DNA of 64,000 nt from Synechococcus sp. A10-1-5-1 (GTDB lineage Bacteria > Cyanobacteriota > Cyanobacteriia > PCC-6307 > Cyanobiaceae), in NCBI RefSeq assembly GCF_023115425.1, contig NZ_CP096032.1, positions 1,550,001-1,614,000 on the forward strand, read 5' to 3'. The notes under the pieces were generated by a model. It made no database searches, had not been told where the DNA came from, and was given only the letters and a program-made list of their open reading frames with translations. Position numbers and translations under genes: made by a program. This document shows positions 24,413-36,048 of the stretch, piece by piece (position 1 is the stretch's first letter; each line of letters begins with the position of its first letter).

Positions 24413-25498
24413 TTAGGCGTGGGCTTTGAGGTTGTCGGCCCCGTCGATTAGCCGGGCGCGGACGATGCCGTCGTCGATCCCCAGTTCCTCGAGAACCTCA
24501 AAACCATCCACCACGTAGCCAAAGGCGCTGTAGCGGCCATCCACGAGGTTCAGGCCTGCGGGGGTGAGTTCGGCTTCGTAGAGGAAGAAGAAGAACTGGG
24601 AGGAGCCATCGGCGAGGGACTCATCGGAGTGGGCCCAACCCATGGTCCCTAGGGTTGCGAAGGGAAGGACCGGAGTGGCTTCAAAGCGGCCTAGGTCTTC
24701 AAACGTGGCGTTGTAGAAGGGCTCGGTCTCCCCGGGAACCATGATTTCAAGGGGAACCTGGCGCTCAGTCTTGGTTTTGGGGTCGATGTAGCCAGTCTCC
24801 GGGCCTTTGGGGTCCCCGGTTTGCAGGACATAGAAGTCTTCCGCCCGGGTGAAGGGCAGGTCGTCGTAGAAGCCCTGCTTCACCAGATCAACGAAAGCCC
24901 CTGCGGTGAGCGGCGCGTTGTAGCCATCGGCGATGGCCGTCAGGGTGCCCTTTGTGGTCTCGATCTCAACGGTTGCCCGACCCAGCAGCCGGGGGAGGGC
25001 GTCAAATTCGCTGGGGATGGCAAAGGGGAAATCACCCACCAGGAGTGCCTCCAGTTCACCCACGGTGCTGAGGGCCGCGCGGCGATCGTCCAGGAATACG
25101 TCGCGGTCTGAGCTCTCGCTGCTCTCCGCGAGGGTCAGCATCTGGGTCTGCAGGGTCGCGATCAGGGTTTGTCCTTCGGCTTGTTTGGCCTCCGGCAGGC
25201 TCGCCACGATGGCGTTGGCGCGGGTGTTGAGCAGCGCCTGACTCTTGCGAACCGTATTAACCAGGGCGCTCCAGCGCTTGGCTCGGAGGTCGTCGCTGGT
25301 GCTCTCCAGCCTGTGTTGCAGCTCCTGGAGATCCGACTGTTCGATCGGAAGAGCGTTACGAAGGATGGCGGCGGGATCCTTCACCGCGTTCCCGGGCGGA
25401 AGCGCAGCTTGAGCTGGAGCCACCAGTGGGGAGGCGGCGAAAGCGATTGCGATCAGCAGGGCGGGCACCCAGCGATCCAGCCAGCGCTTCAGATCCAT
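24413..25498 (-). CDS. Lumenal cyclophilin-type protein, CYP38/TLP40-like
   Basis: Exported immunophilin related to plant CYP38 and Synechocystis Sll0408, which assist photosystem II assembly. The 361-aa protein has a Sec signal peptide (hydrophobic [16 protein letters not shown], cleavage near AQA-ALPPG), an N-terminal helical domain (residues about 40-170), and a C-terminal cyclophilin domain ([44 protein letters not shown]). Several catalytic cyclophilin residues differ, so isomerase activity may be weak. The ATG at 25498 directly precedes the signal peptide; 25531 would add 11 residues. Adjacent thiL is probably coupled. Confidence 0.88.
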
Positions 25499-25565
25499 GC
25501 TGCAGCCTTGTCTCTGCCGGGACTCTGCCACAGCCGTACAATCCCGCCAGAACCGTTATGCCGGA

Positions 25566-26126
25566 ATGATCTCGAGCAACGACTTTCGTACCGGCACGAC
25601 GATCGAGATCGACGGTCAGGTCTGGCGCGTCGTTGAGTTCCTGCACGTCAAGCCCGGCAAAGGCTCCGCCTTTGTGCGCACCAAGCTCAAGGCCGTCCAG
25701 TCCGGCAACGTTGTTGAGAAGACATTTCGAGCCGGCGAGACCGTTCCCCAGGCGGTTCTTGAGAAAGCCGTGCTTCAACACACCTACATGGAGGCCGAGG
25801 ACTTCGTCTTCATGGATATGTCCACCTACGAGGAGACGCGCCTGACCGCCAAGCAGATCGGCGATCAGCGCAAGTACCTCAAGGAAGGCATGGAGGTGAA
25901 CGTTGTCTATTGGAACGGGAAGCCTTTGGAAGTGGAACTCCCGAACTCCGTTGTTCTGGAAATCACCCAAACTGACCCCGGTGTGAAGGGCGATACCGCG
26001 ACCGGCGGCACCAAGCCAGCCATCGTCGAGACCGGTGCTCAGGTGATGGTTCCGTTGTTCCTCTCGATCGGCGAAAAGATCAAGATCGACACCCGCACCG
26101 ACAGCTACCTGGGCCGCGAGAACTGA
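25566..26126 (+). CDS. efp: Translation elongation factor P
   Basis: Relieves ribosome stalling at polyproline. The 186-aa protein has the standard three-domain OB/KOW structure: domain I with the loop KPGKGSAF carrying the tip Lys near residue 32, the [14 protein letters not shown]-like segment ([10 protein letters not shown]), and the C-terminal signature [14 protein letters not shown]. No epmA/epmB partners are seen here. The start is ATG 25566. accB follows after 4 nt, a classic cyanobacterial pairing. Confidence 0.96.
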
Positions 26127-26130
26127 TCCC

Positions 26131-26604
26131 ATGCAACTCGACCACAACCAGCTGCGCGAGCTGATCGCTCTGCTCGGCGACAGCGATATCCAAGAGCTCA
26201 AGCTCGAGGGCGATGACTTCCGCCTTGAGCTGCGTCGCAACCTCCCCGGCGTCCAGCCCCAGGTGGTGATGCAGGCGGCTGCTCCCGTTGCAGCTCCAGC
26301 CCCAGCCCCTGCAGTTGCGGCTCCCTCCGCTGCTCCTCCGGCCGCACCAGCGGTCCGTAGCGATCTAATTGAGATCACCGCCCCAATGGTGGCGACCTTC
26401 TATCGCTCCCCTGCTCCGGGTGAAGCCACTTTCGTTGAGCTGGGCTCCAAGATCAACGTTGGCCAGACCGTCTGCATCCTCGAGGCGATGAAGCTCATGA
26501 ATGAGCTCGAGTCTGAGGTGAGTGGCGAAGTTGTTGAGATCCTGGTGGAGAACGGCACCCCCGTTGAGTTCGGCCAGGTGCTGATGCGGGTGAAGCCCGC
26601 CTAG
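26131..26604 (+). CDS. accB: Biotin carboxyl carrier protein of acetyl-CoA carboxylase
   Basis: Carries the biotin that shuttles carboxyl groups in fatty-acid synthesis. The 157-aa protein has the N-terminal MQLDHNQLRELIALLGDSDI region, an Ala/Pro linker (about residues 50-75), and the biotinyl domain with the EAMKLMNELE motif, whose Lys is biotinylated. It starts 4 nt after efp. Its TAG stop shares the palindrome CTAG (26601-26604) with the convergent pdxA stop. Confidence 0.96.
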   Translation: MQLDHNQLRELIALLGDSDIQELKLEGDDFRLELRRNLPGVQPQVVMQAAAPVAAPAPAPAVAAPSAAPPAAPAVRSDLIEITAPMVATFYRSPAPGEATFVELGSKINVGQTVCILEAMKLMNELESEVSGEVVEILVENGTPVEFGQVLMRVKPA

Positions 26605-27617
26605 CCCAGTTCCTGAGCCGCCTCGAGGGCCGCGACCATGCTCTCGGAGCGCGCGAGGCCGCGACCGGCAATGTCGAACCCGGTTCCGTGATCCGGTGAG
26701 GTTCTGAGGAAGGGCAGCCCCAGGCTGGTGTTGACCGCCTGGTCAAAGGCCAAGAGCTTCACGGGAATCAGCCCTTGGTCGTGGTAAAGCGCCAGGAAGC
26801 CATCGGGTGCGTCTCCCCCCTGCCGCCAGGCCAGGCCAGCGCTGATCCAGCAGGTGTCAGGGGGTAGCGGCCCCAGCAGCCGGACGTCCGGGTTGCGCGC
26901 TGCCCAGTCCTGGAGGGTCGCTTCCAGCCATGTCGCCTCCTCCTGCCCCAGGCGTCCCGCTTCCCCTGCATGGGGATTGAGTCCCGCCACGGCCAGGGTC
27001 GGGTCGGGGCGAAACCGACGGCAGAAGTTCAGCAAGACATCGAGCTTGGCTAGCACCCGTTCCCGGTTCAAGGCCTGGGGCACCTGCTTCAGGGGGATAT
27101 GGGTGGTGGCGAGCAGGGTGTTGAGCCGCCAGCCGCTCTGGGGAGACCGGGCCGTGAAGAGCATGGAGGCCTCTTGCACTCCGGCGAGTTCAGCTAAGCG
27201 CTCCGTTTGACCGGGGTAGTCATGGCCGGCCGCGTGCCAGTGCTGTTTGGCGATCGGGGCGGTTACGAGGGCCTTGCCGGAGCCCCCTTGCACCAGCAAG
27301 GCAGCTTCTGTCAGCCAGCGGAAACTGGCGTCACCGCTTAGGGCACTCGGAGCCCCTGGCCGGACGGGTTGCTCGAGCGGACAATCCAGCACGTCGAGCT
27401 CGGCGGGGTCGGCCAAGGGGGCCTCGCTGCAGCCCTTCAAGTGCTGGTAGCTCTCTTCGAGCCAACGGCGGCAGCCGACCAGTAGCGGTGGTTCCGCCTC
27501 ACTGCTCCAGCGGGCCAAGGCTTTGAGCACGACCTCGCCACCGATGCCCGCGGGATCGCCGAGGGAAACGATCAGGCGAGGGCGCTTAGCGTTGCTGTCG
27601 CTTGGCGGATCACCCAT
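26601..27617 (-). CDS. pdxA: 4-hydroxythreonine-4-phosphate dehydrogenase PdxA
   Basis: Oxidises 4-phosphohydroxythreonine in pyridoxal phosphate synthesis. The 338-aa protein shows SLGDPAGIGGEV at the start, ALVTAPIAKQ, metal-binding His residues in HDYPGQTE, GLNPHAGEAG and YHDQGLIPVK, and the DHGTGFDIAGRG ending. Family membership is secure; since cyanobacteria may make PLP by other routes, the in vivo substrate is inferred. Its ATG overlaps head to head with the small gene on the plus strand within CATG (27615-27618). Confidence 0.92.
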   Translation of the reverse strand: MGDPPSDSNAKRPRLIVSLGDPAGIGGEVVLKALARWSSEAEPPLLVGCRRWLEESYQHLKGCSEAPLADPAELDVLDCPLEQPVRPGAPSALSGDASFRWLTEAALLVQGGSGKALVTAPIAKQHWHAAGHDYPGQTERLAELAGVQEASMLFTARSPQSGWRLNTLLATTHIPLKQVPQALNRERVLAKLDVLLNFCRRFRPDPTLAVAGLNPHAGEAGRLGQEEATWLEATLQDWAARNPDVRLLGPLPPDTCWISAGLAWRQGGDAPDGFLALYHDQGLIPVKLLAFDQAVNTSLGLPFLRTSPDHGTGFDIAGRGLARSESMVAALEAAQELG

Positions 27618-27780
27618 GTTGCGTTGGCTGTTGCTGATCGGGATGGGCTTTGCCCTGGTGAAGGGTGTGCAGAACGGTTGGGTGGAGTTGCATTGGAATC
27701 GTCTGTTCCACGACGCCGGGGTGCCTTTTGTGCCGCACCCAGATCAAGGTCCGGCCGGCTCCGACGCGAAGCGCATCTAA
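27616..27780 (+). CDS. Small membrane protein, 54 aa
   Basis: A short ORF with ATG 27616. An N-terminal hydrophobic segment (LRWLLLIGMGFALVKGV) is followed by a polar tail with Trp and His residues and ending DAKRI, typical of one-helix picocyanobacterial membrane proteins. It starts within the same CATG that contains the pdxA start on the other strand, so the two are truly back to back. No known domain. An upstream start at 27523 would run antisense into pdxA and is rejected. Confidence 0.6.
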   Translation: MLRWLLLIGMGFALVKGVQNGWVELHWNRLFHDAGVPFVPHPDQGPAGSDAKRI

Positions 27781-27791
27781 GCCTTATTCCA

Positions 27792-28670
27792 TCACTTGAG
27801 ATGGGTCTGTTCTTCCTCCCAGCTGGCGGTAAACCCCTCCCGATAGGTGGGGTAGAGCAGGCGGTACCCCAGGTCCTGACAAAGCAACGCATTGCTGATG
27901 CGCCGGTTGTCGGCCCAGAAACTGAGGGCCATGGGACTCATCTCGCCCTCGGCCTCGCGGAAGGTCCGCAGTGCCGGCAATTTGCAGCCCAGCAGATGGG
28001 CGGCAAAGCCGAGAGTTTCACTTGAGGGGCAGGGAAGATCGTCGCTGACGTTCAGGAGTGCTGGCCGGACCTCAGGGGGCAGGCCGCAGCAGTGCAGCAA
28101 GGCCCCGACGATGTCATCCACATGGATGCGGCAGAACACCTGCTGAGGCTTGTGGATCAGGCGTGCTGTGCCCTGCTGCAGTTGCTGGAAGGGGCAGCGG
28201 CCCGGGCCATAAATGGCTGGGAGCCGAAAGCTCTGGAGCGGCAAACCGCTGGCCAGCCAGCGTCGCTCGCACTGCAGGCGTGACTGGCTGCGGCGTAGCC
28301 CTGGCTGCGTCGGACTCCCTTCATCGACCCAGCGCCCTTGGCTGTCGCCGTAGACCCCTGTGGTGGAGAGGTAGCCCACCCACTGGAGCGGCTGTTGCTG
28401 CAGGGCCTCCTTCAGCAGGTTGTAGGCGTCGTCCTCGCCGCTGCCATTGGGCGGCAGGGTGATCAGCACATGGCTGAGGCCTTCAGGCAGCTGGGGGATG
28501 GCTCCCTCCCCGGCATTGAAGTGGAGCCACTGCGCTCCCTCCCGAGCTGACCGTGATGTCAGCCAGACCTGGGCCCCCTGCGCCTTTGCCGCAGCGGCAA
28601 AGCGCTGGCCGGTGTATCCCCCGCCGATGACCAGCACGCGGGAGGAGGGCTTGACACCATGACTAGTCAT
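27792..28670 (-). CDS. NAD(P)-dependent epimerase/dehydratase-like SDR protein (YeeZ type)
   Basis: Extended short-chain dehydrogenase fold, 292 aa. The Rossmann motif VLVIGGGYTGQRFA is at the N-terminus, STTGVYGD at about residue 103 holds the usual active-site Tyr region, and RLPAIYGPGR and HVDDIV are SDR family elements. It resembles the YeeZ-like proteins of unknown substrate. The expected YxxxK is not evident, so catalytic status is unclear. Its ATG lies inside a perfect 14-bp palindrome (28658-28671). Confidence 0.8.
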   Translation of the reverse strand: MTSHGVKPSSRVLVIGGGYTGQRFAAAAKAQGAQVWLTSRSAREGAQWLHFNAGEGAIPQLPEGLSHVLITLPPNGSGEDDAYNLLKEALQQQPLQWVGYLSTTGVYGDSQGRWVDEGSPTQPGLRRSQSRLQCERRWLASGLPLQSFRLPAIYGPGRCPFQQLQQGTARLIHKPQQVFCRIHVDDIVGALLHCCGLPPEVRPALLNVSDDLPCPSSETLGFAAHLLGCKLPALRTFREAEGEMSPMALSFWADNRRISNALLCQDLGYRLLYPTYREGFTASWEEEQTHLK

Positions 28671-28685
28671 GAGTACACCTGTATT
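28658..28685. promoter_or_regulatory. Palindrome and LexA-like site between divergent genes
   Basis: CATGACTAGTCATG (28658-28671) is a perfect 14-bp palindrome containing the SDR gene start. Immediately beside it, AGTACACCTGTATT (28672-28685) matches the published cyanobacterial LexA box RGTACNNNDGTWCB except for one base (the conserved C is T). Both lie between the divergent SDR gene and the small secreted protein gene. Whether either is functional cannot be told from one copy. Confidence 0.3.
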
Positions 28686-28700
28686 ACTCGTTGCTGATCG

Positions 28701-28943
28701 GTGACCGCATCCTGCTTCCCTGCCCCTCTCGCGTCCTCCTTCGTGTCACGGGCTCCTGTGCGTGCGCGCCCCAGGCGGCGACCACAGAGGCTCGGGATCG
28801 CCGGTGTCGAGCGTCGCCTGATCGGCCTTTCGGCCCTCGCGGCGATGGTCTTCGCCGCCCTGCTGCTCGCTCCGGATCAGCCCCAGGCTCAGGCGGAGAT
28901 CTGCCAGCGCCATAACGGGGCTGCGGCCTGTCGGATCTGGTGA
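28701..28943 (+). CDS. Small secreted or membrane-anchored protein, up to 80 aa
   Basis: Short ORF with GTG 28701 or the more conventional GTG 28743 as start. It has an Arg-rich N-terminus, one hydrophobic stretch (IGLSALAAMVFAALLLA), a likely signal cleavage after AQA, then a short mature part EICQRHNGAAACRIW with two Cys. The mature tail resembles small cysteine-containing secreted proteins of picocyanobacteria. No function known. It ends 1 nt before the convergent HNH gene. Confidence 0.55.
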   Translation: MTASCFPAPLASSFVSRAPVRARPRRRPQRLGIAGVERRLIGLSALAAMVFAALLLAPDQPQAQAEICQRHNGAAACRIW

Positions 28944-28944
28944 A

Positions 28945-29358
28945 TCACGCGGCCTGGAGGTATGGCTGTATGGGGTTGAAGCCGGAGTCCGCAGCGGCGG
29001 GGGTGGGACTGCCCTCAGGGCTCGCCCATTGCAGGAGGCGTAGAGCCAGGCGAAGGTCACCGTCGGTCCAGGCACGGATGGCCATGGCTCGTCGAGGGTC
29101 GTAGAACCGCTGCTGCCTGTACCACTCGAAGGCGTCGGCGTCGCTTTTGCGGCCATTGCAGGCCAGGCAGGCGGGGACGCAGTTCTCGGTCACGCTCAGC
29201 CCGCCGCGACTTTGCGGGAAGACGTGGTCAATGGATTCAGAAGGTTTGCCGCAGTAAATGCATGTTTTCCCCGTGTAAGTGTGGAGGGATTGTCTCCACC
29301 GACGAACGCGAAGTTTGGGGCACAAGTCTTCAAGGAAAACGGCATCCCTGCTGTGCAT
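28945..29358 (-). CDS. HNH endonuclease
   Basis: Small nuclease of 137 aa of the HNH family. The zinc-bound core has CIYCGK near residue 33, the HNH strand ESIDHVFPQSRGG with the metal-binding His, the Asn in LSVTENCVPACLACNGRKS, and a second CxxC pair. The conserved surroundings (RVRRWRQSLHTYTGKTC) and the tail FYDPRRAMAIRAW look like the free-standing HNH proteins common in cyanobacteria. DNA or RNA target unknown. The gene is divergent from a SNF2 helicase across 168 nt of visibly lower GC. Confidence 0.85.
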   Translation of the reverse strand: MHSRDAVFLEDLCPKLRVRRWRQSLHTYTGKTCIYCGKPSESIDHVFPQSRGGLSVTENCVPACLACNGRKSDADAFEWYRQQRFYDPRRAMAIRAWTDGDLRLALRLLQWASPEGSPTPAAADSGFNPIQPYLQAA

Positions 29359-29446
29359 CCGAATAATTCGGTTGCTGGGAGTCTGGCCTGGGTGGCTTGG
29401 ATGTCAATGTGTCGAACGATGCATTTTGCAAGGCTTATTGCAAGTG

Positions 29447-29474
29447 TTGCGCGGGCTCCGCGCTTCGCTAAATT
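29447..29474 (+). promoter_or_regulatory. Candidate promoter of the SNF2 helicase gene with inverted repeat
   Basis: TTGCGC (29447-29452) and TAAATT (29469-29474) are spaced 16 bp apart, weakly resembling -35/-10 boxes. A perfect inverted repeat GCGCGG-GCT-CCGCGC (29449-29463) overlaps the -35 and spacer. The direct repeat TTGCAAG...TTGCAAG lies just upstream. It is 53 nt before the ATG at 29527. Purely pattern-based. Confidence 0.3.
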
Positions 29475-29526
29475 ATGAGTTGCTGCCACAGCTGCGACGG
29501 CCCAGCAACGCACCGCGCGCTGTCTG

Positions 29527-31101
29527 ATGCGGCTAGGAGCATCGGGCTCCATTGAGTTGGTGCTGCCATTTGATGCGGTGACCCAGGCGCAGCTGCGGGC
29601 CGTGCGTCCCCGCGGGTACTGGCGCTCAAGGCAAGGCTGTTGGGAGTTCCCGCTGGAAGCGGCCCTGGTCTTGCGCCAGCACTTCGGCCAGCGGTTCGCG
29701 ATGGAGCCGCCGCTGCCCCAGTGGTGCCGCTGGCTGGAGCAGCCTCTACCCCCCTTGCCGCCCCACCGCGAGCTGATTGCCATCGCTGGATTGGCTGACC
29801 CCTTGCCGGATGGTCGTGAGCTGTTTGCCCATCAGCGGGCTGCGGTCCGTTGGTTGTTGGCGCGGCGTGGGGCTGTGTTGGCGGACGCCATGGGGCTTGG
29901 GAAAACCCTGACGGCCTTGGTCGCCGCGCGCGCGATGGTTCGGACGGCGGATTGCCATGTGGTCGTGATTGCCCCAACGGGGTTGCATCGCCATTGGCGG
30001 CAGGAGGCGGCGGCCTTACAACTGCAGATCAACTTGCTGAGTTGGGCGGCGCTGCCGGAGGACTTGCCAGAGGCGGGCACGGTCCTGATTGCCGATGAGG
30101 CCCATTACGCCCAGAACCTGAACGCTGCGCGAACCCAGGCGTTCCTGCGCTTGGCGCGCCATCCGCGGCTGCGGGTGGCCTGGCTGTTGAGTGGGACACC
30201 GATGAAAAACGGGCGCCCGGCCCAGCTGTTTCCTTTGCTGGCGGCGATTGGGCACCCGCTTGCTCAGGATCAGCGGGCCTTTGAGGAGCGCTACTGCCTC
30301 GGCCATTGGCATGAACGCTCCGGCACCCGCCAGTGGAGCGCAACGGGGGCGACCCATCTGCCGGAGCTGCAGCGTTTGGTGCGGCCTCTGTTGTTGCATC
30401 GCCGCAAGCAGGATTGCCTGGATCTCCCCCCCAAACGGAGGCGGATGCTGCCCGTCACCCTTTCGGAGGCGGAGGGCCAGGGCTTCCAGCACCGCCTGCA
30501 GCTCATGGTCGATGACTATCGCCGCCGCGCAGCAGCGGGTCTGGTGCGCCGGGATGCTGAGGCCTTAGCCGTGCTCACGGCCCTGCGCCAGATCGGCTCG
30601 GAGTACAAGCTGCCGGCTGCTGCTGCCCTGCTCGCCAGGCTGCAGGCCCAGGGGCAAGCCGTCGTGGTCTTCACCGCCTTTGTGGCGGCTGCCCAGTTGT
30701 TGCAGCAGCGACTGGGCGGCGCCCTGCTCACCGGACGCTTGGCGGCTGCAGAGCGTCAAAGCGTGGTGGACCGCTTTCAGGCGGGAGAGGAGCAGCTGTT
30801 GATCAGCACCTACGGGGTGGGGGGCCTCGGGTTCACGTTGCATCGCGCCAAGCATGTGGTCCTCTTGGAGCGGCCATGGACTCCAGGCGATGCCGAGCAG
30901 GCGGAGGATCGCTGTCATCGCATTGGCATGCAGGGCACCCTCGATTGCCACTGGCTCCAACTCGGGGTGGCCGATCAGTTGGTCGATGGTCTGATTGCCG
31001 ATAAGGCTGAGCGGATTGCCCTGTTGCTCAGTCGCGGTCAGGCTCAGTTGGATCGCCAGCCGCTGCCGCGGATGGTTCAGCAGCTGCTTGATCAGTGGTG
31101 A
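29527..31101 (+). CDS. SNF2-family DNA translocase with HARP-like N-terminus
   Basis: Superfamily 2 ATPase of 524 aa. Helicase motifs in order: Q-like DGRELFAHQRAAVRWL (95-110), Walker A DAMGLGKT (120-127), Walker B DEAH (190-193), SGTP (222-225), STYGVGGLGFTL (427-438), and the arginine finger segment EDRCHRIGMQG (460-470). Residues about 9-57 (LPFDAV...RGYW...CWEFPLEAALVLRQHF) resemble the HARP domain of SMARCAL1-type annealing helicases; this is my inference. A compact domain with no extra C-terminal module follows. The HNH nuclease gene is its divergent neighbour. Its 3' end overlaps a convergent lipoprotein gene by 74 nt. Confidence 0.88.
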   Translation: MRLGASGSIELVLPFDAVTQAQLRAVRPRGYWRSRQGCWEFPLEAALVLRQHFGQRFAMEPPLPQWCRWLEQPLPPLPPHRELIAIAGLADPLPDGRELFAHQRAAVRWLLARRGAVLADAMGLGKTLTALVAARAMVRTADCHVVVIAPTGLHRHWRQEAAALQLQINLLSWAALPEDLPEAGTVLIADEAHYAQNLNAARTQAFLRLARHPRLRVAWLLSGTPMKNGRPAQLFPLLAAIGHPLAQDQRAFEERYCLGHWHERSGTRQWSATGATHLPELQRLVRPLLLHRRKQDCLDLPPKRRRMLPVTLSEAEGQGFQHRLQLMVDDYRRRAAAGLVRRDAEALAVLTALRQIGSEYKLPAAAALLARLQAQGQAVVVFTAFVAAAQLLQQRLGGALLTGRLAAAERQSVVDRFQAGEEQLLISTYGVGGLGFTLHRAKHVVLLERPWTPGDAEQAEDRCHRIGMQGTLDCHWLQLGVADQLVDGLIADKAERIALLLSRGQAQLDRQPLPRMVQQLLDQW

Positions 31102-31477
31102 GGCGAAGGCAATTGCGCTTGCGCAGATCGATCTCGTCTCGCATCAGCGCGTCGATGGGGTGCTTGCCTTGTTCCACCAGGGCGGCCGCTTTCAAGCTGT
31201 CGCGGCAGGCCTCCTGAGGCTTGCCCGCCAACTTGAGCAGTAGGGATCGCTCGTTGCGCGGCTGTGGATGCTCGGGGAAAGCCTCAACGACTGCGTCGCA
31301 GTGCTGGAGCAAGGCGGGCAGACGATCGAGATTGACGCCGCGCAGGCAGTCGTCGACCCGGGTCTGGCTTTCGCCAGGTTCAGGAGCAGCACTGCAACTG
31401 CTGAGGGCGAACCACAGCAAACCGGCCCCCAGGGACGGCGATAGCCAAGAGCGGCCCTGGGCGGTGCGGGTTGCCAT
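31028..31477 (-). CDS. Lipoprotein with TPR-like region, 149 aa
   Basis: Starts at ATG 31477. A signal peptide ends in LSSC, a plausible lipobox (FALSSC, Cys at about residue 28), so the mature protein would be membrane-anchored. The mature part has helical repeats (LDRLPALLQHCDAVVEAFPEHPQPRNERSLLLKLAG) like tetratricopeptide repeats, four further Cys, and an Ala/Glu-rich tail. The 3' 74 nt overlap the end of the SNF2 gene on the opposite strand. It follows the secreted protein gene by 5 nt and is probably cotranscribed with it. Function unknown. Confidence 0.65.
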   Translation of the reverse strand: MATRTAQGRSWLSPSLGAGLLWFALSSCSAAPEPGESQTRVDDCLRGVNLDRLPALLQHCDAVVEAFPEHPQPRNERSLLLKLAGKPQEACRDSLKAAALVEQGKHPIDALMRDEIDLRKRNCLRLTTDQAAAEPSAAAAGDPTEPDRD

Positions 31478-31482
31478 CAGCC

Positions 31483-31944
31483 TCAGTAGGCGTAGCGGTT
31501 CACATTGCCGCCGCTGCTGCTGCCACTGCCACTGGTGATGCCTGAGCTGGTGCTCGTGCGGTTGGTGCTGTCGGGATGGGTGGACTGGCTCTTCTCCTCA
31601 GTTGTATCGACAGCTTTCACGTAGAGGTCGCCGAGGTAGCGGCCGCAGTCGTTGTATTTGCCGGGATCGGCCACCACGGCTTCCGTGATCATCACGGCCG
31701 CGTGCTCAGGGGAGGTCTTGAACACCGAAGCGCTTTGACGCTTGATCACGGCGTAGGCGGCTTTCCAGCTCACCTCATGGTTGTTGCCGCTGCTGCGCAT
31801 GTAGCAATAGATCTGGGCGCCTTTGGCACCGGTCTCATTGCCGGCCAGAGCAGCGGTCGGCAGCGCAGACCAGCCCAGGGCAGCAAGCGGTAGGGCTGCA
31901 GCCAGCCGAAGCAGCCGGCGGTTGAAGGACAGGGGATGACGCAT
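31483..31944 (-). CDS. Conserved secreted protein of picocyanobacteria, 153 aa
   Basis: A signal peptide (RRLLRLAAALPLAALGWSALPTAALAG) is followed by a mature domain containing IYCYMRSSGNNHEVSWKA and KTSPEHAAVMITEAVV, and a Ser/Gly/Thr-rich C-terminal tail. I recognise the mature domain as belonging to a widespread picocyanobacterial hypothetical family (possibly DUF6554) without known function. The ATG at 31944 is chosen because it directly precedes the signal peptide; an in-frame ATG at 32016 would add unconserved residues. It lies between an AbrB-like gene upstream and the lipoprotein gene downstream. Confidence 0.7.
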   Translation of the reverse strand: MRHPLSFNRRLLRLAAALPLAALGWSALPTAALAGNETGAKGAQIYCYMRSSGNNHEVSWKAAYAVIKRQSASVFKTSPEHAAVMITEAVVADPGKYNDCGRYLGDLYVKAVDTTEEKSQSTHPDSTNRTSTSSGITSGSGSSSGGNVNRYAY

Positions 31945-32016
31945 GCCGAAGCAGGGGGAAGGCATTGGATGACCCACCGTATCGATCGTTCCCCTCTGGA
32001 TCCAGGGGCCGATCAA

Positions 32017-32541
32017 TCAGCTGGCAGGGGGTGGAATGTCCCCGTGGCCCAGGAGAAGTCGGACCGCCAGGGGAAGCACCAAGAGCACCGTGATCAGGCG
32101 GACAGCGTGCAGGGCTGCGACCGCGGCGCCAACGCCAAATTCAGCGCCCACCAAGCTCATCCCGCTGATGCCCCCTGGCGCCGCTCCCAGCAGGGCAATC
32201 AAGGGGTCCATGCCCAGAAGCCGACTGCACCAGAGCCCCACCACCAGGCCCGTCATCACCAGGGTGAGCGTGATCAAGAGGGCCGGCCGCCAGAGCTGTT
32301 TCAACTCGCTGAAGGCCGTCGCCGTCAACCCGGTGCCGATCACGGTGCCGATGCCGATCTCGAGAGCTGTCCGGGTGCCTGCGGGCCAATTCGCGGGTTC
32401 CAGCTTGCCGCTCATGCTCAGCAGCCCCGCCCCGAGGAGCGCGCCGGCCAAAGGGGCGGCCGGGATGCCAGTCCGGAGGGCAAGCAAGCCGCCGCTGATG
32501 CCCGCCAGTAGATAGGCCAGCAGGTGAAGGCTTGATGGCAT
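32017..32541 (-). CDS. AbrB-family membrane protein, single repeat (half size)
   Basis: Polytopic membrane protein of 174 aa with five to six hydrophobic segments. ISGGLLALRTGIPAAPLAGALLGAG and LLGAAPGGISGMSLVGAEFG are the landmarks of one AbrB/ammonia monooxygenase-like repeat. Family proteins usually carry two such repeats in about 350 aa; this one has only one, so it would need to dimerise. The same short form is known in some cyanobacteria. The transported substrate is unknown. It is not related to the AbrB DNA-binding regulators. Confidence 0.75.
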   Translation of the reverse strand: MPSSLHLLAYLLAGISGGLLALRTGIPAAPLAGALLGAGLLSMSGKLEPANWPAGTRTALEIGIGTVIGTGLTATAFSELKQLWRPALLITLTLVMTGLVVGLWCSRLLGMDPLIALLGAAPGGISGMSLVGAEFGVGAAVAALHAVRLITVLLVLPLAVRLLLGHGDIPPPAS

Positions 32542-32637
32542 CGCTGGGCTGCCCTGGAATCTCTTCAGTCTGCTTGGCCGCTTGGGCTTGAGAAGTGCTC
32601 AGGGCTGTGGTGTTATCGGGCCAGTTGAACCCTGGGC

Positions 32638-32928
32638 ATGGCTGGCGAATCGGTCTCGTTTCGCATCACTCGCACCACCGAGGACCTCGCTCAAACCGTG
32701 GCGGCTCTCTCGCAGCGACTGGTGAAGCTGGAGCAGCGCCTGAATGCGATGGAGCTGCAGCTGGATCAGGTCTCCGTTGTAGAGGCGCCAGACCCTGAAG
32801 AGCTCACTCGCCTTGACCATGTCGAGACACTCCTGGCCGACTGCCGCAGCTTGCTGGAGGACAGCGTTGAGGTTGAGGAAGCACCCGCGTTGGTGAATCC
32901 TCACGTGGATGAGTCCATGGCTGCGTGA
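32638..32928 (+). CDS. Coiled-coil hypothetical protein, 96 aa
   Basis: Short acidic protein from ATG 32638. Residues about 12-50 form a strongly predicted coiled coil (TVAALSQRLVKLEQRLNAMELQLDQV), with further acidic segments after it. There is no signal peptide, membrane span or known domain. The following small ORF starts 38 nt later on the same strand and may be cotranscribed. The organisation looks native, and the length is typical of conserved picocyanobacterial hypotheticals. Confidence 0.6.
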   Translation: MAGESVSFRITRTTEDLAQTVAALSQRLVKLEQRLNAMELQLDQVSVVEAPDPEELTRLDHVETLLADCRSLLEDSVEVEEAPALVNPHVDESMAA

Positions 32929-32966
32929 CCCCTTGCGCCGGGGCCACAATGGAAAGAAAGCGAACC

Positions 32967-33185
32967 ATGGCCTTTTCCAACAGCCATCGCTCCGTGCCCG
33001 TTGCCCCTGCCGTCTCGGGGACCCCGGCTTGCAGCAGCCGCTCCTATGCCGAGGGCGGACATCAGCTCGAGAAGCTGGAGTTTGCCCTCGCTGTCGCAAT
33101 CACCCGCGGGGATGCAACACGAGTGAGGCAACTTCGCGATCAGATCGCGGCTCTGGGCGGCAATCGTGAGGAGCCGGGTACCTAG
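32967..33185 (+). CDS. Conserved hypothetical protein, 72 aa
   Basis: I place the start at ATG 32967, preceded by a GGAAAGAAAG tract; ATG 32949 is an alternative. The N-terminus is Ser/Pro/Ala-rich (SNSHRSVPVAPAVSGTP), and the C-terminal half is a helical region (LEKLEFALAVAITRGDATRVRQLRDQIAALGG) of the type found in conserved picocyanobacterial proteins. Function unknown. It follows the coiled-coil gene, and together they form a pair of small genes. Confidence 0.65.
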   Translation: MAFSNSHRSVPVAPAVSGTPACSSRSYAEGGHQLEKLEFALAVAITRGDATRVRQLRDQIAALGGNREEPGT

Positions 33186-33256
33186 TCCCTGCTTGGCTTT
33201 GACCCTTGAGTTGTGTCAGGGCCGGCCCAGCTTTGGGGCTCTCTCAATGTGGCGAC

Positions 33257-33262
33257 TAATAT
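33257..33262 (+). promoter_or_regulatory. Candidate -10 box before the 68-aa gene
   Basis: TAATAT at 33257-33262, in a locally AT-rich stretch, lies 22 nt before the ATG at 33285. This spacing would leave a leader of about 15 nt. No -35 is obvious. It is the only notable element in the 99-nt gap between the two small genes. Confidence 0.35.
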
Positions 33263-33284
33263 TTATCCAAACAAGATCAAATAA

Positions 33285-33491
33285 ATGCCATCCAGCCAAC
33301 AGGCGCCTGTAGCTGAGCAACGAGACGATTTGATGCGCGAGGCTGCAGCGTTTTCGGCTGCGGCTGAGCAGGCCGCTTCGAGCGGCGAGATTGAGCAGTC
33401 AGCGCGCGATATTCTCCGCTCCCTTGATTGTGAGCGCCGTGCAGGAAGTGTGGGGCCTCAGGTGATGCAGCTGATCAAGCCCAGAAATTGA
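33285..33491 (+). CDS. Small hypothetical protein, 68 aa
   Basis: ATG 33285. The protein is helical and acidic (REAAAFSAAAEQAASSGEIEQSARDILRSL), ending RNWP-free with a basic MQLIKPRN. It has one Cys, no membrane segment and no recognised domain. A -10-like box lies just upstream, and a weak ribosome-binding sequence is all that precedes the ATG. It ends 34 nt before the convergent tRNA-Gly. Reality is likely but unproven. Confidence 0.45.
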   Translation: MPSSQQAPVAEQRDDLMREAAAFSAAAEQAASSGEIEQSARDILRSLDCERRAGSVGPQVMQLIKPRN

Positions 33492-33525
33492 GGCCAATAG
33501 TTTTGCCCCGCTGAAAAGTTTGAGA

Positions 33526-33597
33526 AGCGGATGACCGGGCTCGAACCGGCGACGTTCAGCTTGGGAAGCTGACATTCTACCACTGAATTACATCCGC
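33526..33597 (-). tRNA. tRNA-Gly (anticodon CCC)
   Basis: Minus-strand cloverleaf of 72 nt. The acceptor GCGGATG (33597-33591) pairs with CATCCGC (33533-33527), with discriminator T at 33526. The anticodon arm is TCAGC-TTCCCAA-GCTGA with anticodon CCC, reading GGG. The T arm has GGTTCGAGCCC. CCA is not encoded. It stands between small hypothetical genes and the aminotransferase gene. Confidence 0.97.
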
Positions 33598-33653
33598 AAA
33601 TTGATAGTTAACAGCTCAGATTAGAGCAGTTTGCTATCTCTAAGAAGCGTAGC

Positions 33654-33681
33654 AAGGGAGTCCCGCCCTGGGAGCTCCCTT
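33654..33681 (-). terminator. Hairpin downstream of the aminotransferase gene
   Basis: AAGGGAG (33654-33660) pairs with CTCCCTT (33675-33681), and the inner TCCC with GGGA, forming an 11-bp stem with one bulged base. It is 13 nt beyond the aminotransferase stop on the minus strand. No T tract follows on either strand, so termination is uncertain; it may instead stabilise the mRNA 3' end. Confidence 0.45.
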
Positions 33682-33694
33682 GTGGTCGGCTGCT

Positions 33695-34846
33695 TCAGCT
33701 GGCCAGGGCCGCAGCGCAGGCTGCGACGCCAGCACCAGGAGTGCCTTTGTGCAGGCCCAGTTCCTGAAGGGTGGCTTCAATCGCTGCGACGGCGGTCAGC
33801 ACATCGCGATCACAGACGAAGCCCAGGTGGCCGATGCGGAAGACCTTGCCCTTGAGGTGGTCTTGGCCGCCGGCCAGAAGGATGTCAAAGCGATCCTTGA
33901 CCGTCTTGCGCAGGCTCTCGGCGTCGATCCCTTCGGGAGCCACGGCCGTAATGGCAGGGCTGCCGTAGCCCTCAGTGGCGTAGAGGGGCAGGCCAATGGC
34001 TTTCATGCCCGCTTGGGCGGCGGCGCGATGGCGCGCATGGCGGGCAAAGATTCCCTCGAGGCCTTCGGCCTGCATCATCTCCAGTGCCGCTTCCAGGGCG
34101 AAGTAGAGGTTGATTGCGGGGGTGAACGGGTTGCTGTTGGCTTGGGCCGATTTCCGGTACTTGCCCAGATCGAGATAGAACTTCGGCAGGTCGGAGCGGC
34201 TGTAGGCCTCCCAGGCCTTGTCGCTCATGGCGACGAAGGCCAAGCCCGGGGGCATCATGTAGCCCTTCTGGGAACCGGATCCGATGATGTCGATCCCCCA
34301 GGCATCCATGGGCACATTGCAAGCCCCGAGGCTGGTGACGCAGTCAGCAATGGTCAGGGCCGTGCCATGGGCTTTGACGTGCTTCGCGATGGTCTCCAGG
34401 TCGTTGATGACCCCAGTGGAGGTCTCCGAATGGGTCACGATCACGGCCTTGATGGCCTTGCTGGAGTCGGCCTCCAGGGCGGCGCGGAATGCTTCGGGAT
34501 CCAGTGGGGAACCCCACTCGGCCTTGATCACCTCCACCTCAAGGCCATAGGCCTGAGCCACCTTCACCCAGCGCTCGCCAAACTTGCCGTTATCGCCGCA
34601 GAGGACCTTGTCCCCTTTGCTCAGCACATTGATGATTCCGGCTTCCATCGCGGCGGTGCCGCTGCCGGTGATCACTAGAACGTCATTGCTCGTCTGATGC
34701 AGCCACTTCAGCTGGGCAGTGGTGCGCTCAACGATCTTTTGGAAATCCGCGCTGCGGTGACCGATGGGGTGACGTCCCATCGACTGCAGGACGCTTTCCG
34801 GCACCGGTGTGGGGCCGGGGATCATCAGAGTCAGCTTGTCCTGCAT
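33695..34846 (-). CDS. Class V aminotransferase (serine/alanine-glyoxylate type)
   Basis: PLP enzyme of 383 aa in the SGAT family, long labelled as soluble hydrogenase 42-kDa subunit in cyanobacteria; this label is misleading. The N-terminal IPGPTPVPE, the VLVITGSGTAAMEAG segment, TIADCVTSLGACNVPMD with the PLP-binding Asp, and GSQKGYMMPPG with the Schiff-base Lys are all present. The ATG at 34846 gives the family N-terminus; the upstream ATG 34903 would add 19 residues. It probably acts in photorespiratory serine/glycine metabolism, although the exact substrates are inferred. It is divergent from cbiD. Confidence 0.92.
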   Translation of the reverse strand: MQDKLTLMIPGPTPVPESVLQSMGRHPIGHRSADFQKIVERTTAQLKWLHQTSNDVLVITGSGTAAMEAGIINVLSKGDKVLCGDNGKFGERWVKVAQAYGLEVEVIKAEWGSPLDPEAFRAALEADSSKAIKAVIVTHSETSTGVINDLETIAKHVKAHGTALTIADCVTSLGACNVPMDAWGIDIIGSGSQKGYMMPPGLAFVAMSDKAWEAYSRSDLPKFYLDLGKYRKSAQANSNPFTPAINLYFALEAALEMMQAEGLEGIFARHARHRAAAQAGMKAIGLPLYATEGYGSPAITAVAPEGIDAESLRKTVKDRFDILLAGGQDHLKGKVFRIGHLGFVCDRDVLTAVAAIEATLQELGLHKGTPGAGVAACAAALAS

Positions 34847-34932
34847 GGTGGGTGAGCCGGGGCGATCGCTGCCCGTTGGATCAGCAGCGCAATCGACCAA
34901 CATAAAAAACGGACCTCATCCTTCTCTGTTCC

Positions 34933-36048
34933 ATGGCTGAGTGCGGCTACACCCTTCCGGTGTGGGTAGCGGCCGCAGCTGTGGCCGCCGTTCGGGAGCT
35001 TCTTGGTCAGACGTTTGAAGCGCAGGTCCCACTGCTCCTCGAGACCGTGGCGGGTCGTCAATCCACGGCGATTCCGGTTCAGGCGGCGGCCCGCTTGAGC
35101 CCGGAGCGGGCTTTGGCCACCAGTTGCTGTGATCCCGGCGAGGTTTTGGATCTCACCCGTGGCCTACAGGTCTGGGTGGAGGCCAGCTGGAATGCGGCTG
35201 GCACCGATGGGGACTGGTTGCAGTTGTTGCCCGGTGAGGGCGTGGGAGTTCACGCCGCCTCCGGTGAGGCCTGCCTCTCGGCCTACGCGCGGCAGTTGCT
35301 GGAGGTCAATCTGCGTCCACTCCTGCCCGATGGCCGGAGCCTCCGGTTGACGATCACCCTCCCGGAGGGGCGCCAACGGGCCCAGCGCACGAGCAATGCC
35401 GCCTTTGGTGTGGTGGAGGGCTTGGCCCTGATTGGGACCCAGGCGTTGGTTCAGCGCAGCGCCGCCCCCGATCAACTGGCCCAGGCCCGTCAGGAGTTGG
35501 AGCGCCGCAGTCAGGAGCCGTTCTGGCGTGGCGACCTGGTGCTGGTCTTGGGCGAAAACGGCTTGGATCTGGCCCCCCAGCAGGGGCTGCCCCCGGCGTT
35601 GTTACTGAAGGCGGGCAATTGGATTGGACCCTTGCTGGTGGCCGCGGCTGAGCTGGGGGTCCGGCGCCTTCTGTTGTTTGGCTACCAGGGCAAATTGATC
35701 AAGCTGGCGGGGGGCATCTTTCATACCCATCACCATCTGGCCGATGGTCGCCTGGAAATCCTGGCGGCCCAGGCCGTCCAGCACGGTTGTTCGCTGAACC
35801 AGATCCGGCTGCTGCTCCAGGCAGCCAGCGTTGATCAGGCCATTGCTGATTTGGCCGAGGGCGACGCAGGTCTGGCGGCGGGCCTGCAGCAGCGCTTGGC
35901 TGCGGTGATCGAGCAGCGCGCTCGCTCCTATCTGGCCAAGCATCACGACGCTGATCTCCAGCTGGGTGCGGTTCTGTTTGACCGCAGCCGCACCCTTTGC
36001 GCCCGCGGCCCTATCGGGGCCGAGCTGCTGGAGTGCTTTCAGGCCTGA
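34933..36048 (+). CDS. cbiD: Cobalt-precorrin-5B C1-methyltransferase CbiD
   Basis: Methylates C1 of the corrin ring in anaerobic-pathway cobamide synthesis. The 371-aa protein begins GYTLPVWVAAAAVAA, which fits the family N-terminus, and carries the LTITLPEGRQRAQRTSNAAFGVVEG segment, the KAGNWIGPLLVAAAELGV motif, FGYQGKLIKLAGGIFHTHHHLADGR and the C-terminal RARSYLAKHH part. The domain is complete. Its neighbour guaA starts 46 nt downstream on the same strand. No other cob genes are in the window. Confidence 0.93.
   Translation: MAECGYTLPVWVAAAAVAAVRELLGQTFEAQVPLLLETVAGRQSTAIPVQAAARLSPERALATSCCDPGEVLDLTRGLQVWVEASWNAAGTDGDWLQLLPGEGVGVHAASGEACLSAYARQLLEVNLRPLLPDGRSLRLTITLPEGRQRAQRTSNAAFGVVEGLALIGTQALVQRSAAPDQLAQARQELERRSQEPFWRGDLVLVLGENGLDLAPQQGLPPALLLKAGNWIGPLLVAAAELGVRRLLLFGYQGKLIKLAGGIFHTHHHLADGRLEILAAQAVQHGCSLNQIRLLLQAASVDQAIADLAEGDAGLAAGLQQRLAAVIEQRARSYLAKHHDADLQLGAVLFDRSRTLCARGPIGAELLECFQA

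Follow-up and report, generated by a model that had tools for sequence, protein, structure and literature searches.

The gene considered here lies in a window of 64,000 nucleotides that spans positions 1,550,001-1,614,000 of the single-contig genome (NZ_CP096032.1; 2.40 Mb) of Synechococcus sp. A10-1-5-1, and it encodes an SNF2-family ATPase. With a probability of roughly two in three, the product is a compact ATP-driven translocase of double-stranded DNA in which one HARP-like domain stands directly before the SNF2 motor, with a putative role at replication forks and a putative origin in mobile elements. A gene for a free-standing HNH endonuclease is transcribed divergently from it, and according to the open reading frames (ORFs) of the window the two start codons are 168 bp apart. 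The positions and strands given for both genes in the initial annotation of this DNA were exact and were confirmed by ORFs and Pfam (Table 1); the functional pairing that it had proposed for them did not hold up.

The SNF2 protein matched the Pfam families SNF2-rel_dom (1.4e-23) and Helicase_C (1e-15), and its motor motifs, i.e. Walker A, Walker B and motif VI, are intact. A full-length AlphaFold2 model with a predicted local distance difference test (pLDDT) score of 87.6 matched the SNF2 motors of INO80 (Z 28.4, model residues 81-502) and CSB (residues 78-524), and the PHROG profile phrog_62 matched the motor at 9.8e-66. If the N-terminal domain is taken as HARP-like, it stands immediately in front of an SNF2 motor whose motifs are intact.

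A residue pattern resembling HARP had been pointed out in the N-terminal region, and its elements are present: LPFD at residues 13-16, RGY at 29-31, CWEFPLE at 38-44, and a terminal helix, which AlphaFold2 placed at residues 43-53. Residues P14, D16, G30, W39, F41 and P42 are invariant across 30 family members, whereas the Tyr of Arg-Gly-Tyr is not conserved across the family. A chain of tests through intermediates was built because a single-sequence scan with a hidden Markov model (HMM) is weak for a domain of 50 residues. By tblastn, full-length relatives were found on plasmids of Microcystis, Nostoc and Synechococcus PCC 7502 (three records, 40-42% identity over 93-94% of the protein), together with Arthrobacter phage helicases of about 27% identity over residues 8-495. 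The plasmid and family proteins are collinear through the N-terminal region, with P14, D16, G30 and W39 invariant in ten rows, and the same N-terminal pattern was seen by eye in two more distant relatives, L146 and L147. The first of these, a full-length relative, gave a sub-threshold PF07443 (HARP) match at its N-terminal domain (E 0.014).

In a PF07443 search of 292 phylum-sampled genomes, 26 had a match at E ≤ 0.05, and the same search matched in 2 of 14 control genomes. One phylum match was flagged as exceeding the PF07443 cut-off; it consisted of two overlapping pieces in a 51-residue frame, one of them with a stop. Five HARP-like places were used (L242, L243, L244, L245 and L249, the last being the same gene as L146), and the remaining places were rejected by eye as unrelated or broken frames. 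As whole proteins, L242 (31.8 bits) and L244 (32.5 bits) passed the PF07443 cut-off, each with two copies by eye, and the SNF2 ORF of L245 had a sub-threshold N-terminal match of 19.4 bits (E 0.00076).

Two reference sets were aligned with hhalign, a strict set of four HARP copies and a HARP-like set of eight rows that includes the cut-off-passing L242 and L244; three of the eight are SNF2 N-termini picked for the pattern, which weakens the comparisons made with that set. Against the eight rows, the family N-termini reached 88% with a score of 33.8 (best of 200 column permutations 16.1), and the plasmid-type rows L162-L165, which are contigs of Laspinema, Nostoc and Amazonocrinis, reached 97% with a score of 55.7 (best of 200 permutations 17.7). 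Against the four strict copies, the plasmid-type rows reached 97.3% with a score of 60.6 (best of 200 permutations 19.2). Moreover, an HMM made from 13 non-family sequences found its best match N-terminal of residue 95 in all 105 family sequences, i.e. 30 from sampled regions and 75 from named loci, with some genomes counted twice; on window residues 8-53 it scored 10.2 bits, the maximum of 2000 shuffled N-termini being 8.5. The HMM of the four strict copies also placed its best match N-terminal of residue 95 in 103 of the 105 sequences, at E < 0.01 in 46.

Several direct tests weigh against the assignment. The PF07443 search suggested in the initial annotation gave no match even at E 10, neither with the full SNF2 protein nor with its first 100 residues, and the curated Pfam cut-off of 25 bits is not reached. 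Genome-wide, PF07443 at E 10 missed the SNF2 gene and matched elsewhere only, and such matches also appeared in 5 of 14 control genomes; the match in the window's own genome (G000:C1:955497, 14.8 bits) was set aside as probably due to chance. Six of the seven relatives scanned, four plasmid proteins among them, gave no HARP match at E 10. Compared with the four strict copies, the family rows reached a modest 42% (score 25.2; best of 200 permutations 21.5), and compared with the plasmid-type N-termini 53% (score 28.6, without permutation control). The four-copy HMM gave the window protein 1.6 bits, a score reached by 13 of 2000 shuffles. When the Protein Data Bank (PDB) was searched by sequence with the N-terminal profile or the L146 domain, only chance-like matches were returned, among them a chain named as a bacterial toxin.

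The predicted fold adds a second line of comparison. For residues 1-92, AlphaFold2 with 40 sequences returned a model with pLDDT 87.6 and a predicted template modelling score of 0.69, in which a strand (9-12), a helix (17-24), two strands (31-33 and 38-41) and a helix (43-53) follow each other as beta-alpha-beta-beta-alpha. When 246 chains from the Foldseek list were aligned with VIA-align, the N-terminal half of archaeal XPB (2fz4, residues 27-80) came first, with Z 4.9 and a root-mean-square deviation (rmsd) of 2.2 Å over 51 residues at 16% identity; the next chain had Z 3.9. The motor families of XPB and T4 UvsW differ from SNF2. HARP, XPB and UvsW reportedly share one domain, a statement attributed to Mason et al. 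2014. A fold search in a viral library gave four matches at probability 0.99-1.00, one of them a phage protein of 73 residues that bears the name of SMARCAL1 (rmsd 1.9 Å, probability 0.99, E 0.094). On the opposing side, the E-values of these four were 0.01-0.09 and none was below 0.001, the best Foldseek E-value against the PDB was 1.6, and Z 4.9 is below the safe level of the tool; the likeness to XPB is weak and may reflect merely a common arrangement. A HARP crystal structure was absent among the Foldseek (50 of 85) and VIA-align matches listed, which is no evidence against the fold.

The most serious competing explanation is that the N-terminal region is a small lineage-specific domain, HARP-like merely in its W-x-F-P pattern, in front of a generic SNF2 translocase that acts, for example, like RapA in stripping proteins or RNA polymerase from DNA. 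The missing Pfam call, the poor Foldseek E-value and the modest scores against strict copies and plasmid-type N-termini would all fit such a domain. It is nevertheless rather unlikely, given the collinear homology to plasmid proteins whose close relatives match the strict HARP copies at 97.3%, the recovery of the domain by a non-family HMM in every family sequence, and the fold match to the SMARCAL1-named viral domain. The evidence thus supports the N-terminal domain as a remote HARP relative, in a relation that holds through intermediates and is weak when tested directly. The resemblance first noticed in the residue pattern survives to that extent, through profile comparison and the non-family HMM; in direct tests against strict copies it is weak.

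The same searches yielded other HARP-like architectures. In L243, from a distant phylum member, positions 573-2159 encode an exonuclease VII large subunit (PF02601 8e-51) preceded in the same chain by a HARP-like domain whose PF07443 match (18.1 bits, E 0.002) lies under the cut-off, and a full-text literature search found no paper linking the names HARP and exonuclease VII. L242 (1165-1815) and L244 (1096-1662) encode free-standing bacterial two-copy HARP proteins without a motor, the copies being recognised by eye, and no SNF2-like ORF was recognised by eye in these loci of about 3 kb each.

The SNF2 gene is probably a captured fork-remodelling motor from plasmids or phages, because in a tree its clade falls together with helicases of cyanobacterial plasmids and viral contigs. 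That IQ-TREE tree covers the motors of 67 rows, one viral row without Walker A (L312) having been left out, and in it the 30 family rows formed one clade (100/100), nested in a clade (99/99) together with all 8 plasmid-type and 9 viral-contig rows. Weakening the inference of origin, the fork that places the family beside most plasmid rows (91/94) is not starred, the root is a midpoint root, a long branch (1.07) leads to the family, and the letter composition of many rows is unusual. The scan of viral contigs gave at least 575 relatives. From the 80 best, a filter requiring two motor motifs in one frame retained 28 loci, and a HARP-like domain preceded Walker A in 19 of the 28 filtered ORFs as against 0 of 135 shuffles.

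The plasmid and viral-contig relatives, DEAD/DEAH (SNF2) helicases, are homologous to the window protein over both the HARP-like domain and the motor, and the family rows are 35-41% identical to the first plasmid row. They differ in length, the plasmid proteins having about 150-280 additional residues, mostly N-terminal ones, and in location, since these relatives sit on plasmids and viral contigs and not at one syntenic site. The simplest reading, as we infer it, would be a single capture from a plasmid or phage by the family ancestor before its radiation, followed by fixation at the syntenic site and later loss in streamlined genomes. In a Microcystis plasmid (L152:2755-6927), the SNF2 helicase is read as a pair of genes separated by an IS4 transposase gene.

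Distribution was surveyed in a genus sample of 25 genomes and a family sample of 200 genomes from 34 genera, with cut-offs of E 1e-40 for SNF2 and E 1e-15 for HNH. Within the genus, each gene was present in 24 of 25 genomes, the remaining genome being 62% complete, and by their coordinates the two lay side by side and divergent in all 24; one genome (G006) has SNF2 in two frames. Within the family, SNF2 was found in 143 genomes (26 genera), so that most of the sampled genomes have it in a single copy and at a syntenic site, and HNH in 191 (31 genera). Lists compared by eye gave both genes in 143, HNH alone in 48, neither in 9 and SNF2 alone in none. Outside the family, 2 of 244 phylum-sampled genomes matched SNF2 at 1e-40, across the motor, and 1 of 194 matched HNH at 1e-15 (match 1e-16, residues 23-94). 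In their present form both genes are thus largely confined to the family, plasmid-type SNF2 relatives aside.

The HNH protein matched Pfam HNH_5 (1.4e-9) and HNH (1.8e-9), both above the cut-off. Across 40 members 59 positions are invariant, among them C33, C36, D44, H45, N59, C64, C67 and N68, i.e. the zinc cysteines and the DH...N...N residues are intact. Among the PDB sequence matches listed for it (60 of 72), the best solved relative was 4h9d, the free-standing HNH nicking endonuclease of Geobacter metallireducens (E 1e-7, residues 16-80), and ZRANB3 was not found. Over residues 16-80 all insertions relative to 4h9d are of at most about 3 residues, the ZRANB3 insert site not itself having been compared; unlike 4h9d, the window protein has a conserved C-terminal stretch past the HNH core, residues 79-111. 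Genomes of one genus, g8 (1.6-1.7 Mb), carry a second HNH paralogue that is 57-61% identical to the window HNH (Table 1). A Prochlorococcus HNH gene, PMM1528, is reported as raised under UV (PMC2921402).

Gene order was compared in 40 regions, 30 with SNF2, covering all 26 SNF2 genera, and 10 with HNH only; among the eight SNF2-less genera, g2, g8, g22 and g32 are represented in the regions and g6 is not, and g5, g13 and g27 have neither gene. The initial annotation had proposed adjacency as a check of the pair, and HNH and SNF2 are indeed divergent and adjacent in all 30 SNF2-containing regions; this conservation, although broad, is not above that of neighbouring genes. Counting genes as adjacent when no other query gene of the ten lies between them, which leaves room for small genes outside the ten, the pairs were adjacent wherever both members were present: efp-accB 39/39, accB-pdxA 40/40, pdxA-epimerase 40/40, epimerase-HNH 40/40, HNH-SNF2 30/30, SNF2-next gene 25/25, and then 26/26, 27/27 and 24/24. 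In all ten HNH-only regions the same block was found, with HNH in place and SNF2 missing. One of these genomes (G190) belongs to genus g3, in which the 18 other members sampled all carry SNF2, and the other nine regions are from genomes of 1.6-1.9 Mb.

Named loci gave a similar picture. Of 80, 75 carried SNF2 of the window type (67-96% identity) and five came from other cyanobacteria (L162-L165 and L186; 44-47% in the best piece); a divergent HNH gene stood beside SNF2 in 75/75 and 0/5, respectively, the HNH gene being cut by the locus end in L169 and L181. According to the incomplete gene tables of PLSDB, none of five plasmid loci has an adjacent HNH gene; in one plasmid an HNH gene lies about 6 kb from SNF2. 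A regular expression for the HNH motif matched in 2 of the best 80 viral-contig loci. One of the named loci (L203), titled as a Bifidobacterium breve metagenome-assembled genome, carries a picocyanobacterial HNH-SNF2 locus and is probably a mislabelled or contaminated assembly.

HNH and SNF2 stay adjacent because the whole block is syntenic, and a dedicated pair was rejected because, among the ten block genes, each of the nine successive pairs is conserved to the same degree; in addition, 48 of the 191 HNH-positive genomes lack SNF2. HNH is a separate gene, more widely kept than SNF2, and looks like a mere neighbour of SNF2 in a long conserved gene block and not a dedicated partner. The proposal of a split ZRANB3, in which HNH nuclease and SNF2 motor would form a two-chain structure-specific nuclease of the kind fused in animal ZRANB3, draws on the constant divergent adjacency, on the lack of any genome with SNF2 alone, and on the intact motifs of both proteins. 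A bacterial relation to ZRANB3 has, as a general idea, already been published: PMC5481773 reports bacterial HNH proteins that stand by themselves and share the ZRANB3 insert or resemble the ZRANB3 domain, as well as bacterial ZRANB3-like proteins. The locus resembles ZRANB3 (AH2) in combining a HARP-like element, an SNF2 motor and, encoded alongside, an HNH nuclease, whereas the window HNH is a separate divergent gene on the opposite strand that persists without SNF2. In view of the neighbour control, the HNH-only genomes, the ten outside relatives without an adjacent HNH gene, the rarity of the motif in viral-contig loci and a best solved HNH relative that is free-standing, the split ZRANB3 is improbable. 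Slightly less credit still is given to an independently evolved two-gene analogue of ZRANB3, in which the SNF2 motor, as a domesticated plasmid or phage HARP-SNF2 protein and single-chain counterpart of SMARCAL1, would direct the resident HNH nuclease to reversed forks. A role of the SNF2 protein in an anti-phage system kept at this site would fit the matches of the PADLOC profiles DpdE, ZorD and DrmD to its motor (best 1.9e-28). It is hardly credible and was rejected, since the PADLOC matches listed (25 of 43) are partial ones to the motors of larger profiles, the block genes efp, accB, pdxA, epimerase and aminotransferase are unlike a defence system, and the presence of SNF2 is syntenic, unlike variable defence islands.

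What is preferred is thus the single-chain translocase with a HARP-like domain. The closest known arrangement is the catalytic unit of SMARCAL1, likewise a HARP-type domain immediately before an SNF2 motor in one chain. According to PMC4035279, the second HARP domain of human SMARCAL1 together with the SNF2 motor suffices for annealing helicase activity, and HARP domains fused to other SNF2 proteins confer that activity; T4 UvsW is listed among strand-annealing helicases in PMC3409536. The window protein differs from SMARCAL1, for which an RPA-binding motif is also reported, in having a single copy of the domain, which is not called by Pfam HARP, and a putative annealing activity. By analogy, the HARP-like domain would grip branched DNA or a junction of single- and double-stranded DNA while the motor rewinds strands by ATP-driven translocation, and annealing, branch migration or fork regression would result, such that stalled forks or recombination intermediates may be remodelled as by SMARCAL1 and phage UvsW. 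In the portions of the literature available, nothing was recognised as describing this cyanobacterial SNF2 protein.

Table 1. Features of the HNH-SNF2 locus and HNH paralogues elsewhere; columns give feature, position (in the window unless a genome is named), strand, and basis or remark.
HNH endonuclease, free-standing, 137 amino acids	28945..29358	-	ORF and Pfam; in 191/200 family genomes, with or without SNF2
HNH core, residues 33-68 (CxxC, DH, N, CxxCN)	29155..29262	-	all invariant in 40 relatives
Divergent intergenic region, 168 bp	29359..29526	.	length among relatives about 85 to 292 bp; without Rfam match
SNF2-family ATPase, 524 amino acids, HARP-like N-terminal domain and motor	29527..31101	+	ORF, Pfam and AlphaFold2
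HARP-like domain, residues 8-53	29548..29685	+	profile comparison, HMM, predicted fold
Walker A, MGLGKT, residues 122-127	29890..29907	+	M122, G123, G125 and K126 invariant
Walker B, DEAH, residues 190-193	30094..30105	+	motif reading and family conservation
Motif VI, QAEDRCHRIG, residues 458-467	30898..30927	+	motif reading and family conservation
Second HNH paralogues, genus g8	G095:C1:919922-920254; G083:C1:916358-916690; G062:C1:288970-289305; G031:C3:16148-16486		sequence match

An Rfam scan of window positions 25000-35000 found nothing besides tRNA. A small ORF at 28701-28943 (+) lies between the epimerase and HNH genes, convergent with HNH, and its translation includes a hydrophobic segment and ends in a conserved sequence like IC[QE][RK]HN...AC[RQ]VW-stop. 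A counterpart was seen by eye in 36 of the 40 family regions (L096-L135), with or without SNF2, and the product is apparently a conserved small membrane or secreted protein.

For the two neighbouring genes, the consequence is one of method: before two genes can count as partners, their conserved adjacency must be compared with that of the genes around them. Provided that the HARP assignment is right, a chromosomally encoded, minimal HARP-plus-motor protein of 524 residues is present in most of the picocyanobacteria sampled, those with the smallest genomes excepted. Such a protein would offer a small bacterial system for how a HARP domain steers a motor, and its gene would be a marker of a way of handling stalled forks that small-genome relatives do without.

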